IMG/VR virus record: IMGVR_UViG_3300008629_000018
Span: 1 to 31,654 of that record
Origin: a virus
Strand: one strand, 5' to 3'
DNA length: 31,654 bases
The notes beneath the pieces were generated by a model. That model saw nothing but the letters and a program-made list of their open reading frames with translations. It was not told where the DNA came from and did not search any database. A program made the position numbers and the translations under genes. Below are positions 14,134 to 26,950 of the stretch, one piece after another; position 1 is the stretch's first letter, and every line of letters begins with the position of its first letter.

Positions 14134-14164
14134 GGGGGGGGCTTATGCCCTCCCCTTTTTTTTT
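14134..14164 (+). terminator. Strong Rho-independent terminator after the first early gene
   Basis: Eight G and C pair with GCCCTCCCC around the loop TTAT (9 bp, one G-U), followed by nine T. A second hairpin, TCAGCCT/AGGCTGA (14173-14192), follows directly. Genes downstream need read-through, antitermination or a promoter of their own. Confidence 0.9.
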
Positions 14165-14448: not shown

Positions 14449-14453
14449 AATTG

Positions 14454-14969
14454 ATGGACATAGTATTTGATGTAGATGGAACACTCATGAACATAGAACA
14501 CAGGGTGAAGTATGCGAGGAGGACTATACCACATCCAGATGTACCCATTTACTTGCATGAGATAAAGCCTTCGGCATATCGCATACCTAATCCTGACTAT
14601 GACTATGAGAAGTTTGAAGCGGAGATAGTTAATGATACTCCGAACATTGAAATTTTTACAATAGCTCATGCTCTAAAGGAACAAGGGCATACAATAATCA
14701 TTGCAAGTGGGCGAAAAATAAAACAGGCAGGGGTTACACTCAGGATGTTGGATGAGTACTATGTCTGGGGTGATTCATTCTGGGATACTTATTATTTCCG
14801 AAAGGATGATGACAACAGAAAGGACTGTGTTGTTAAATATGAGATGTATAAACAGATGCTAAAGGATAACTTCGATCCGAAGCTAGTCTTTGATGACAGG
14901 CAACAGGTTGTAGATATGTGGAGAGATAAAGGCATAAGAGTATGCCAAGTAGCAGAGGGTAATTTCTAA
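14454..14969 (+). CDS. HAD-family phosphatase, PseT 3'-phosphatase-like
   Basis: 171 residues from the ATG at 14454 (AAAGGAG, 6-base gap); a TTG three bases upstream is less likely. The HAD motifs are complete: DVDGT at 6-10 (nucleophile D6, acid D8), IIASGR at 82-87 (motif II), a Lys in the region of K128, and FDDR at 146-149 (motif III/IV). The C-terminal DDRQQVVDMWRDKGIRVCQV closely resembles the phosphatase domain of phage T4 polynucleotide kinase. It probably removes 3' phosphates from nucleic acid or dephosphorylates nucleotides. There is no kinase domain. End repair of RNA or DNA damaged by host defences is a fair guess. Confidence 0.75.
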   Translation: MDIVFDVDGTLMNIEHRVKYARRTIPHPDVPIYLHEIKPSAYRIPNPDYDYEKFEAEIVNDTPNIEIFTIAHALKEQGHTIIIASGRKIKQAGVTLRMLDEYYVWGDSFWDTYYFRKDDDNRKDCVVKYEMYKQMLKDNFDPKLVFDDRQQVVDMWRDKGIRVCQVAEGNF

Positions 14970-16738: not shown

Positions 16739-16753
16739 ATCCTTACGAAAGGA
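16739..16753 (+). promoter_or_regulatory. RBS-containing hairpin motif (copy 1)
   Basis: ATCCTTACGAAAGGA can fold as TCCTT/AAGGA around ACGA. It buries the Shine-Dalgarno of the zinc-ribbon gene. Related elements lie at 20762 and 21419. Confidence 0.5.
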
Positions 16754-16764
16754 GGGCCAATTAA

Positions 16765-18132
16765 ATGCCACAACCAGAGAGAGAACCCACCGTTTTCTGG
16801 GAAGAACGAGAACGAAAGAGGTTCGAGACAGGCGTATACAAAGAGTTGCCTTCAAGTATCCGCCGCTTCTTAGATAAAAACCCTGATACTCAAAGACATT
16901 ATGCTCATGTTGATGTAGAGGGTAAAGGGTTGGTTGCTTATACTGAGGATGAACGCAGAGGTGAAGCGGACACTCAGAAAGTAATTAAAGTAAGAAGATA
17001 TGTCAGGAATTTCTTTTGTAAATGGTTGCAATCTAGCTACGGCTTCAGCCCACAGGTTGTAGAAGAAATGCTAGAAGAAATGGCAATCGACTTGTTCAGA
17101 ATGGTTAATAAACCACAAGTATTATTAGCCATGAATCCAGATCATATCAACTGGGTTTTATCACACTCAAGAAATCTCCATGACATTCGTGAGAGAGAAG
17201 ATGGCAGTGAATATGTCATAACTGGCAATGATGTGCCAGAAAAACACAGGGGTTGCCCCTCGTGTATGACATATCAACCAGAAGGAAGCCGTCTTCATAG
17301 TAATAGTGGGTACAAATGCAAACCCATTATGCCTTGCGAAGTTTATGGGTACGGTGATCTTGCGATTGCTCACATAGTTTCTTCAGACAATCCCAACCTA
17401 GTGAAATCCCGTGTTTTAGTCTGGCCTGATAAGAAAATTATATCAGGTAATGGTAACACAGGTTACTTCAAGGGAAGAGATGGATGGGAGGAGAAATTAA
17501 AATTGGGACTCTCAGATATGGGGTACACAGTAGGACATATCAGGGGAGCCAAGATGTACCGTTGGGAGCATAATGGAAGTGTTATTGTTCCTTATCTTGA
17601 TGGTGATGACGGCATTATAGATCACGGAAATTATCTAGAGATAACTCGCAATGAAGATGGCGTTGACTATATTGCCGACCAGATTGATGGGACACCAAAT
17701 CGTAGGCAAGAAGAAGAGTATTGCTTCGCTTGCGATGGCTATTACGCCCCTGATGATATGTCTGGTATGTACCACCATGACGGCAGGGTATGTGTTGGTT
17801 GCGAAGAAGACTTCTTCACTTGTTACAACTGTGAAGAGGTAGCACATAACGATGATTGGTTTGAAGTAGATTGCGATGGATGGTGTGGTTATTGTTATGA
17901 AAACGATGCATTCACTTGCAATCATTGTAATTGTGCGAGAAGTTCGCATGATACTAGTCAGAATTATGACAAGGATGGAGATGTCATCTGTGATTCCTGT
18001 GTTGAAGCGAGTGATGAATATATATTCATGAATAGCGGATGCCTAGGAATTATTATTAATTATTCTGTAACAGTAGCACAATCGGTTGATGATTCTTCTG
18101 TGCAAGAAGAACTAACTAGAGAGGAGGTTTAA
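16765..18132 (+). CDS. Multi-zinc-ribbon (LIM-like) early protein
   Basis: A 455-residue protein. A helical N-terminal half (1-150) is followed by C164-x2-C167 and a beta-rich middle. The C-terminus carries three tandem Cys pairs: C320-x2-C323 with C343-x2-C346; C353-x2-C356 with C374-x2-C377; C385-x2-C388 with C409-x2-C412. This is a treble zinc-ribbon or LIM-like array suited to protein or nucleic-acid binding. GGAGG lies about 10 bases before the ATG, inside a potential hairpin. The stop codon ends where the metallopeptidase start codon begins, so the two are probably translated together. Function unknown; similar Zn-finger proteins occur in other marine phages, but I cannot name a described one. 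Confidence 0.6.
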   Translation: MPQPEREPTVFWEERERKRFETGVYKELPSSIRRFLDKNPDTQRHYAHVDVEGKGLVAYTEDERRGEADTQKVIKVRRYVRNFFCKWLQSSYGFSPQVVEEMLEEMAIDLFRMVNKPQVLLAMNPDHINWVLSHSRNLHDIREREDGSEYVITGNDVPEKHRGCPSCMTYQPEGSRLHSNSGYKCKPIMPCEVYGYGDLAIAHIVSSDNPNLVKSRVLVWPDKKIISGNGNTGYFKGRDGWEEKLKLGLSDMGYTVGHIRGAKMYRWEHNGSVIVPYLDGDDGIIDHGNYLEITRNEDGVDYIADQIDGTPNRRQEEEYCFACDGYYAPDDMSGMYHHDGRVCVGCEEDFFTCYNCEEVAHNDDWFEVDCDGWCGYCYENDAFTCNHCNCARSSHDTSQNYDKDGDVICDSCVEASDEYIFMNSGCLGIIINYSVTVAQSVDDSSVQEELTREEV

Positions 18133-19116
18133 TTGATAGAACAAATAGCAGAGATGTTGACATATTGCAGACCTGCTTATTCCAAAACGGATGAAGCGTT
18201 CATTGATAACTTCATTAAACCTGTCGGTGTAATAAGTGATAAGGCAGGTAATCTTGTGAAGGTAATCGGTGACAACCCGACAGTTATGTGGTCGTGTCAT
18301 ACAGATACAGTGCATAGCAAAGAGGGTTTCCAAGCTGTCGATTTCAAGGGGCAGTACATCAGACGTAAAGATCAGAAAGAAAAGAAAGCTTGTCTTGGTG
18401 CTGATGATACTGCAGGAGTATGGCTCATGTTGGAAATGATTCGTGCTAAGAAAGACGGCATGTATATATTCCATAGGGCTGAAGAGGTAGGAGGGAAGGG
18501 TTCCTCTTACATAGAAAAACATACTCCCGAATTACTTGATGGTATCAAGTATGCAATAGCCCTTGATCGTAAAGGCACGAGGGATGTTATCACCCACCAA
18601 GGAATGATGCGGTGCTGTAGTAATGAGTTTGCAGGTTCATTAGCTGATGCGATAGGCATGAAGTACAAGCCTGATGATACAGGTTCGTTCACGGATACAG
18701 ATAACTATACTGATCTGGTTGGTGAATGCACAAATCTATCTATTGGTTATGAGTATGCACATTCAAGTAAAGAAATATTAGATGCTGGGTTCCTGATGAA
18801 GTTACGCCAACGTCTAATAGACTTGGACTATTCCAAACTAAAAGAGAAGAGAAAGAAAGGAGAGGAAGACCCAGACTACCATAGAAATTATGGCTATTGG
18901 TACAGTGCTGGAGGTTATAGTGATGTAAATGACAGGCGTTTTAGTTACGACAATGTCATTGTTGATGCAGGGTATGGAACAGTAGATAAAACTACTGATC
19001 TTGATGAGCTAGTGTATGACTACCCTGATGTAGCAGTAAGGATGTTGAAAGAATGGGGTGTCACGGCAAGTGATATGCGTGATGAAATCTATAAACAAAC
19101 AGGAGACTTAGTATGA
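18133..19116 (+). CDS. M20/M28/M42-like zinc metallopeptidase
   Basis: A 327-residue protein started by TTG at 18133 (AGGAGG, 5-base gap; no nearby ATG is suitable). The metal ligands of the di-zinc MH-clan peptidases are all visible: H56-x-D58 in WSCHTDTVH, D91/D92 in LGADDTAG, E117-E118 in HRAEEVGGKG, D145 in ALDRKG, and H210 in YEYAHSSKE. It would be an aminopeptidase or amidohydrolase acting on small peptides or amide-linked substrates in the cytoplasm. Residues 225-327 are an extra acidic C-terminal part. Such an enzyme is rare in phage early regions. Its physical coupling to the zinc-ribbon gene suggests a joint task. Confidence 0.75.
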   Translation: MIEQIAEMLTYCRPAYSKTDEAFIDNFIKPVGVISDKAGNLVKVIGDNPTVMWSCHTDTVHSKEGFQAVDFKGQYIRRKDQKEKKACLGADDTAGVWLMLEMIRAKKDGMYIFHRAEEVGGKGSSYIEKHTPELLDGIKYAIALDRKGTRDVITHQGMMRCCSNEFAGSLADAIGMKYKPDDTGSFTDTDNYTDLVGECTNLSIGYEYAHSSKEILDAGFLMKLRQRLIDLDYSKLKEKRKKGEEDPDYHRNYGYWYSAGGYSDVNDRRFSYDNVIVDAGYGTVDKTTDLDELVYDYPDVAVRMLKEWGVTASDMRDEIYKQTGDLV

Positions 19117-24535: not shown

Positions 24536-24850
24536 ATGTTATACCCAGTTAAAATCTTTGATGGAAAAGGAAATCTACTTAGAATTGTAGGAGTAGATGA
24601 ATTAAAAAAGAAAGCTGATAAAGATTTAAAGAACTCTGGTTACATTGCGAAACAAAAGCAACAAAACAAAATCAATATGGCTATGAGGAAAGCAGAAAAA
24701 AGGAAGGAAGAAGAAAGAAATATTAACCTTAACGCAGACGGAATGCAAGGAGGCGAGCAATGCAACGATGCACTCTCAAACTCGGCAGAAGAAAGCATTC
24801 CCCCTACTGGCAGGTTGAAGGATACTTCGGGGGAAAGCGAAAGCGAATAA
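24536..24850 (+). CDS. Small charged protein overlapping the integrase gene (104 aa)
   Basis: Starts at the ATG at 24536, with GGAGG 5 bases upstream; earlier in-frame starts lack a site. MLYPVKIFDGKGNLLRIVGV is followed by a Lys/Glu-rich helical middle (ADKDLKNSGYIAKQKQQNK, AMRKAEKRKEEER) and a Ser/Glu-rich end. It overlaps the integrase by 91 bases in another frame. A small basic helical protein paired with an integrase could be an excisionase or accessory factor, but no winged-helix motif is evident, so this is only a suggestion. Confidence 0.6.
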   Translation: MLYPVKIFDGKGNLLRIVGVDELKKKADKDLKNSGYIAKQKQQNKINMAMRKAEKRKEEERNINLNADGMQGGEQCNDALSNSAEESIPPTGRLKDTSGESESE

Positions 24851-25890
24851 GCACAGGCACTAAAGATAAGGGCAAGGCTCAATTAGCTATGGCTACTATC
24901 ATTAGTGAGTTGGAGCATGGGAAGCAACACAAGCAAGCTACATTTGAAGAAGCATGTAATGAATACTTCTCATTCTCCACAAAGAAAACTCGTGACAAAG
25001 ACTTTGAGTATTACAATAAGTTACAACCATACATTGGTGATATGTACCTCAATGATCTTGGCACTAGACCGAAACAATCTAGAAAGCAAGATGTCCATGT
25101 GCTTAATAGATATGTAATGGATCGTTCAGAAGTAAGGACGTTATCTATTACTACCCTCAACAAAGAGTTGGCATTCGTCAACATGATAGGTAAGAAAGCA
25201 GTCGCTGAGTATGGACTGATTGATTACTGGACACCCATCAGACAGCTAGATAAAGATGAAGGGTATTTCTATGGGCTTATTCCGCCTAAAAAGAAAAACC
25301 ATCTTGACTATGACCTCCAAATTCTATTGTTAAATGAACTACCAGAATATCTGAGGGACATGGCGTTGTTCAGTATCAATACAGGACAGCGTGATGCAGT
25401 AGTATGTGGCTTAAGAAGGGAATGGTTGCATGAAGAATGTGGTGGGTTATGGTACTTCAAAATTCCAAAAGAATTTATGAAGTCAGAAGAATATATGACT
25501 GAAGACTTTGCTTATGTTGTTTTAAATGATACCGCAAGGAGTATGGTATTTAAAAATATGAACTCTAACCATCCACGAATCTTTACCGATAGGGGTGAGC
25601 CAGTTCAATGCATGAATAACTATGAGTACCAATGTGCAAGGGAACGTGTGGCTAAGATACATCCAGAAGTAATGAACACTGATGTTCATTCTTTCAAACG
25701 AACATTTGTTACTCGTTTGATAGACAAGGGTGTGCCTTATGATTGGGTACAAAGGATGGCTAACCATAAATTACCAGAGGTAACAGAGCTTTACAACCAG
25801 ATGAATCCTGAGAAGAGAAGAACCATGTACGAGTATCTTCAAAGGTTAGTAGAGAAACCTCAACTAAAGGAGGTGAAGTATGGAACATGA
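24760..25890 (+). CDS. int: Tyrosine recombinase (phage integrase) with Lys at the second catalytic Arg
   Basis: A 376-residue integrase, AGGAGG 6 bases before the ATG. Residues 1-60 form an arm-binding-like beta domain ([20 protein letters not shown]) and 60-165 a core-binding domain. The catalytic domain has R211 in [15 protein letters not shown]310 in VHSFKRTF, H336 in MANHK, and Y345 in ELYNQM. The position normally held by the second catalytic Arg (H-x-x-R) is K313, with R314 beside it. It would catalyse site-specific integration or excision, or resolve concatemers. It overlaps the methyltransferase start by 11 bases. Confidence 0.85.
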
Positions 25891-26950
25891 TTGGGACTTT
25901 CCATTCGTTATGCATGGAGATGTAATGGAAATGCTAGAACATATAAAGGAAGATTCAATACAAACTTGTGTCACATCCCCACCCTACTGGGGGTTGCGTG
26001 ACTATGATACTGGCACATGGGTTGGTGGTAAAGATGATTGCTCTCATGTCAGAGACTCGAAGAAGAGTGAGCATACCATAACAGGACACAAGAATAATCC
26101 TATGGTTGGTGACGCAATTTATAAAACAATTTGTCCCAAGTGCGGAGCCAAGAGGGTTGACAATCAGCTTGGACTTGAGGAAACACCAGAAGAATACATA
26201 GAGAATATGGTCAAGGTGTTTCGTGGAGTTCACAAAGTATTAAAGGATGACGGTACGCTATGGGTAAACATAGGAGATACCTATTGTGGTACTGGACACA
26301 AGGGAGATTTAGTAGACCCTATGTTTCCAGAAAGAAGGAATGCTCAGTCAACAGCTATCAACAACAAGGTAGAAGGTGTGAAGCCAAAGGATATGATTGG
26401 CATACCTTGGCTGTTAGCATTAGCATTAAGGAATGATGGGTGGTATCTGAGGCAGGACATCATATGGAATAAACCAAACGCTATGCCAGAGCCTGTCAAA
26501 GATAGATGCACTAAGTCACATGAGTATATCTTTTTACTATCCAAGAGTAGACAGTATTACTTTGACTATGAAGCATTGCAAGAACGTGCTTTATATGCAG
26601 GGGATAACAGAGGTGAACGTCCAGATGCAAGGCGTGGCACTTCAATGAACTCAATCAATACAAATACTGGTGAGTTTAGAAACAAAAGAGATGTATGGAA
26701 TATTAACCTCAAGCCATACAGTGAGGCACACTTTGCTGTATTCCCACCCAAGCTACCAGAATACTGTATCAAGGCAGGTAGTAAGGTAGGTGACACGGTG
26801 CTTGATCCTTTCTGGGGGTCAGGTACTACTGGAGTTATGGCTGTCAAACTAGGAAGGAAGGTGATTGGAATAGAATTGAACCAAGATTATATAGATATAA
26901 GTATGAAAAGATTTAGTCAACGAAACTTAGATTTTTATGAGGAGGACTAA
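25880..26950 (+). CDS. DNA methyltransferase, SPPY type (beta order)
   Basis: A 356-residue protein. The catalytic motif SPPYWG (33-38) precedes the AdoMet motif DPFWGSGTT (309-317), with IELN (331-334) after it; this is the beta-class order of N4-cytosine or N6-adenine methylases. SPPY is more usual for N4-cytosine. CPKC at 85-88, perhaps with C54, could bind zinc. AGGAGG precedes the ATG, which overlaps the integrase. No cognate restriction gene is beside it, so it is an orphan that may shield phage DNA from host restriction or regulate phage genes. Residues 145-270 hold the target-recognition region. Confidence 0.9.

Follow-up and report, generated by a model that had tools for sequence, protein, structure and literature searches.

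A metallopeptidase gene of phage early regions and its near-obligate upstream partner gene, also found on a conjugative plasmid

Klebsiella phage KP34 and Pectobacterium phage PhiM1 each carry a peptidase gene with a second gene directly before it (KP34p10-KP34p11 and PhiM1_09-PhiM1_10, respectively), and both members of the pair are among the conserved genes of the KP34-like and PhiM1-like genera (PMC4411677, PMC6115819). The literature on these genera names only the peptidase; the partner is listed as 'hypothetical' (PMC4411677, PMC6115819). The same order is present in Rhizobium phage Pasto (gp4-gp5) and Bradyrhizobium phage BDU-MI-1 (ARQ95236-ARQ95237). We found no described function for the pair in the literature, which mentions it at annotation level only. 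We examined a pair with this gene order in a 31,654-base viral contig (hereafter the window), consisting of a partner gene, ORF A, and a peptidase gene, ORF B. The ORF B product is about 33-37% identical to the peptidases of KP34 and PhiM1 and 40-42% identical to those of Pasto and BDU-MI-1. Unlike the window pair, that of Pasto has the antirestriction gene ArdA directly upstream and that of BDU-MI-1 has rIIA directly downstream. Among the scanned viral neighbours an ArdA gene was seen once.

ORF A encodes a protein of 455 aa at positions 16765-18132 on the + strand, from an ATG start to a TAA stop at 18130-18132, and a Shine-Dalgarno-like AAGGAGG was read at 16749-16755 (+ strand), before the ATG. 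ORF B, which encodes an M28-like clan MH metallopeptidase of 327 aa (18133-19116, + strand), starts with a TTG at 18133 that touches the ORF A stop codon, so that the two genes abut with no gap, as originally predicted. A Shine-Dalgarno-like AGGAGG for ORF B (18122-18127, + strand) occupies the final codons of ORF A and ends 5 nt before the TTG, and its position inside ORF A suggests that translation of the two genes is coupled. Both genes belong to an extended + strand block (about 13.6-30.8 kb) whose products include a DUF932 protein, a YqaJ/RecE-like exonuclease, a ssDNA-binding/annealing protein, a tyrosine integrase, an N6/N4 DNA methyltransferase and a DnaB helicase; the structural genes are on the opposite strand, divergent from this replication/recombination block. 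This layout makes the predicted early operon reasonable, although early expression itself is something that we infer from it.

ORF B exceeded the threshold of the Pfam Peptidase_M28 model (27.2 bits against 21.3) and matched phrog_4191, 'peptidase', with an E value of 4e-75. Residues H56, D58, D91, E117, E118, D145 and H210 are the metal ligands and catalytic Glu expected for a two-metal site (H-x-D, D, E-E, D, H). In alignment columns they were 100% conserved in 69 non-redundant relatives, which is not a chance outcome; the stretch that carries these invariant residues, H56 to H210, lies at 18298-18762 (+ strand). The active site is thus intact, as the original prediction held, and the metal ligands of the homologues, whose loss it had named as a weak point, proved invariant. 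The predicted structure (mean pLDDT 88.7) aligned with tripeptidase 3rza (373 residues) at Z 24.8, with 225 residues at 2.4 A and the lid domain of 3rza left uncovered. As only 34 residues separate H56 from D91 and 64 separate D145 from H210, these gaps are too short to hold an inserted lid domain. PepT-like M20 tripeptidases (3gb0, 3rza) therefore share the catalytic fold and metal ligands of ORF B but differ in possessing a lid/dimerisation domain, whereas members of family M28 have a single catalytic domain, as ORF B does.

Judged by its sequence and its structural model, ORF B is a minimal single-domain clan MH enzyme that is M28-like in build, having the ligands, the score and the lidless form of that family. 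A PepT-like M20 identity was not supported, the score being 35 bits against the cut-off of 274 for the equivalog TIGR01883 and the lid being absent, nor was an M42 identity, with a score below the curated Pfam threshold (21.6 against 23.2 bits). Two features set ORF B apart from family M28: an unrelated gene as its near-obligate partner, and a conserved extension at the C-terminus (about aa 290-320) that follows a low-confidence linker in the predicted structure.

No Pfam or PHROG hit was obtained for ORF A itself. A BLAST search from ORF A reached one phage record, and profiles revealed the partner family. Column conservation delimited an N-terminal region (aa 10-115; 16792-17109, + strand) with W12, H45, H48 and a PGRYL region, where ORF A reads VRRYV, and a central 'SCM' domain (aa 118-300; 17116-17664, + strand) in which Cys167, Tyr194, Arg216, G253 and Asp279 are invariant across the family. 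The C-terminal part contains six CxxC-type pairs, which fit the three Cys-pair zinc modules that had been predicted; these LIM-like, putatively zinc-binding modules (aa 320-410; 17722-17994, + strand) vary across the family and, in the ORF A model (pLDDT 82.7), gave a weak fold match (E 0.02) and a weak profile match (E 0.034). CxxC pairs number from 0 to 11 among partners, and four members (L064, L066, L047 and L052) retain the central domain with no or almost no cysteines. The invariant part of the family is therefore something other than its zinc modules, and 'zinc-ribbon protein' suits the member in the window without describing the family, so the idea of a zinc scaffold as the core of the partner did not hold. 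Among the structural neighbours of the partner in BFVD, one, aligned over 121 columns, bears the name amidoligase. No Amidoligase_2 match was found in the four host genomes of the pair, but no control genome matched there either, so that absence is not proven; the hits among 142 relatives were not necessarily in phage genes. The amidoligase link was set aside.

Scanning viral contigs with the peptidase alignment yielded 80 loci, 78 of them with enough upstream sequence, and 77 of these 78 encode a partner homologue directly upstream in the same orientation. The three other loci comprise two whose contigs leave under 420 bases of sequence upstream of the peptidase gene and one (L057) that truly lacks a partner. 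When the scan was started from partners, an adjacent peptidase was found in 85 of 95 loci, a count biased to the commoner partner type since an 11-sequence partner subset served as the query. Among the ten exceptions, two are truncated by the contig end, the peptidase gene of another is 0.8 kb distant, and two more are chromosomal copies in decay. The remaining five, which represent four distinct sequences (L106, L125, L127/L128 and L131), are real solo partners on contigs classed as viral, several with extra cysteine modules. The solo partners and the solo peptidase of L057 indicate that either protein can function alone at least sometimes.

Partner and peptidase genes overlap or are separated by no more than 50 bp in 62 of 77 loci. 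The two proteins co-diverge, their identity matrices being correlated across 66 loci (Mantel r 0.69; permuted maximum 0.17), a value that shared phage ancestry raises by itself. The proteins upstream of the peptidase in Drulisvirus, Phimunavirus and Maculvirus form phrog_6980 and phrog_13313, which match each other; the BDU-MI-1 partner matched phrog_6980 at 4.6e-5, and the Pasto partner did so weakly (0.01). The two-part system posited in the original prediction, which had proposed co-occurrence in phages and plasmids as its check, was thereby upheld from both directions and extends to a plasmid, pMC4. Taken as a whole, that prediction is partly supported: its observations were confirmed and the two genes very probably form one functional unit, while the zinc scaffold, as described above, and the rarity claim, addressed below, did not stand.

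A few loci depart from the common arrangement. In L019, L023 and L042, tandem partner-type proteins are encoded 5' of the peptidase gene, the first being short and without zinc modules. In L184 (6001-7362), a chromosomal partner gene is in frame with an RtcB-like ligase-like fragment, probably through decay or an assembly join. The 642-kb genome of an uncultured phage (L014; LR756502.1 238846-249553) has four peptidase-matching places, and no adjacent partner was seen at the one that was read.

Cytoplasmic peptidases of this type had been described as rare in phages. By tblastn, relatives of ORF B were found in 375 of 50,697 phage records, chiefly 230 Klebsiella, 51 Pectobacterium and 42 Vibrio phages, which does not bear out that description. 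Most lie in early regions of Drulisvirus, Phimunavirus and Maculvirus, where many are annotated 'peptidase', and these three genera and Rhizobium phages have the same pair. The 'peptidase' of hundreds of Klebsiella, Pectobacterium and Vibrio podophages has a faithful partner that annotation has missed. In a subset of loci a rIIA-like gene follows 3' of the pair, and then rIIB. The pair is also present on the Sphingopyxis indica conjugative plasmid pMC4, flanked by ParB-like/DUF2958 genes on one side and by toprim, DUF2493, HEPN and Abi genes on the other, and related sphingomonad chromosomal loci carry it with the same neighbours. Across several proteobacterial groups the pair is near-obligate in phages, and outside phages it has locations both on a conjugative plasmid and in chromosomes. 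A Limnohabitans plasmid has the peptidase gene with a gene immediately 5' whose size makes it a candidate partner, and seven Bradyrhizobium plasmids of about 0.98 Mb (H130-H136) match the middle 47% of the partner.

Protein-level data are available for Drulisvirus fHeKpn01: LC-MS/MS of purified particles detected its partner (gp12), its peptidase (gp13) and the product of the next gene (gp14) (PMC7291057). Within gp02-gp23 these three were the only products detected, with primase, helicase and DNA polymerase undetected (PMC7291057). RNA polymerase, exonuclease and endolysin were likewise detected in the particles, under a permissive detection cut-off (PMC7291057), so carry-over from the lysate is possible. 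The data show at least that partner and peptidase are both made and are alike in behaviour. The three genes occupy MN380459.1 4312-7498 (L239), and a hypothetical gene 3' of the peptidase gene is also present in PhiM1 and KP34.

We propose that the pair encodes a two-subunit hydrolase that owes its specificity to ORF A and has a host target at an early stage of infection, a reading to which we assign a probability of roughly 45%. ORF B would be an active di-metal, single-domain M28-type peptidase or amide hydrolase, lacking the lid domain that shapes M20 and M42 enzymes and selects their substrates. ORF A would be its dedicated partner and would take over the job of the lid: its invariant central domain may bind the target or the enzyme and so decide what is hydrolysed, with the variable zinc modules serving as added docking surfaces. 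The two-component unit would be produced early, and perhaps also carried in the particle, and would help the incoming phage or plasmid to become established by hydrolysing a host substrate, be it a protein, a peptide or an amide-linked compound. For a physical complex between the two proteins we put the odds at about even. Genes common to phage early regions and plasmid accessory regions often serve counter-defence or establishment, and by analogy the pair may do so too, although we hold an anti-host or anti-defence role only tentatively. Models of PADLOC, a library of defence rather than counter-defence proteins, gave no match at E 0.01 to three peptidases and three partners. If the pair does act in counter-defence, that activity would be of a widely spread, enzymatic kind; in any case a long-ignored core early function becomes testable as one unit in laboratory phages such as relatives of KP34.

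Other explanations divide the work of the two proteins differently. The partner could be a divergent GNAT-type transferase that forms an amide bond to attach an acyl or aminoacyl group, with the peptidase removing that group or one made by the host. In a second-look structural alignment of aa 118-258 of the ORF A model, all 50 rows were GNAT-fold proteins, among them the arginyl transferase ATE1, FemA and aminoacyl-tRNA-dependent peptide synthases, and partners have a conserved RxYGD after the third strand, at about the position of the GNAT RxxGxG loop. The best of these rows, however, reached Z 5.8 over 86 residues, in a range that the tool calls unspecific and lower than is typical for models without any true match, and the RxYGD letters are absent from ORF A of the window. 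Moreover, no Pfam GNAT hit was present among the families listed for 67 partner members at E values up to 10, and a profile comparison of the partner with 29 GNATs (hhalign) was not significant (P 0.05, probability about 1%). Because the best Z is unspecific and neither the Pfam nor the profile-profile test lends support, the partial resemblance to the GNAT superfamily weakly suggests a GNAT-like central domain and is a lead rather than a finding. We regard the transferase explanation as unlikely. Its more specific form, an undescribed amide-chemistry pair common to phages and conjugative plasmids, is more doubtful still: a divergent transferase of the GNAT type, bearing zinc docking modules, and a dedicated hydrolase of the M28 type would jointly add and take off, or rewrite, an amide-linked group on a component of the host or of a defence system as infection begins.

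The proteomics of fHeKpn01 raise the alternative that both proteins, and in Drulisvirus the next product too, are taken up into the particle, leave it with the DNA and work at entry instead of after early expression. Detection of the adjacent gp12-gp14 alone within gp02-gp23 speaks for packaging, and the chance of such contiguity for three of 22 products is about 1.3%, but this was computed post hoc, the permissive cut-off also admitted non-virion proteins, and the genes sit in the early region; we consider it rather unlikely. PepT and TET aminopeptidases are the solved structures closest to the ORF B model, as would suit an ordinary aminopeptidase that recycles host peptides or amino acids with the partner as a regulator or chaperone. 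Such salvage would leave unexplained both a large, near-obligate partner and the occurrence on a conjugative plasmid beside ParB, toprim and abortive-infection genes, and it seems quite unlikely to us. It is less probable again that the two early genes are independent and stay together only through the block-wise movement of phage early regions. The absence of partner-peptidase fusions among the scanned loci and the existence of solo partners would agree with this, but among 73 loci the members of the pair were present in 73 and 68, against 16 and 15 for the next neighbours (rIIA-like and integrase); the other neighbours change almost completely while the pair stays. Lastly, the zinc protein might carry an amino acid that an M20-type enzyme releases, as with LysW and LysK. 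The ORF B model aligned with LysK at Z 21.9, and the NCBIfam family [LysW]-lysine hydrolase was matched weakly (E 0.075). LysW, however, is small (about 54 aa), and partners are far larger, at 278-588 aa, with unconserved C-termini that lack a conserved acidic end; on these grounds the carrier was rejected, and we give it next to no credence. The two-subunit hydrolase is the reading that we retain.

Several other features of the window were recorded. Just 3' of the first + strand ORF, a strong intrinsic-terminator-like hairpin is followed by nine T (14134-14157, + strand). A stand-alone gene at 14451-14969 corresponds to a HAD-type polynucleotide kinase phosphatase domain (PNKP phosphatase). 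The tyrosine integrase gene (24760-25890) is in the middle of the replication block, and similar integrases are encoded 3' of the pair in about one-fifth of related loci. The match of the N6/N4 DNA methyltransferase (25880-26950) covers 316 residues against a 221-position model, which suggests an internal insertion.
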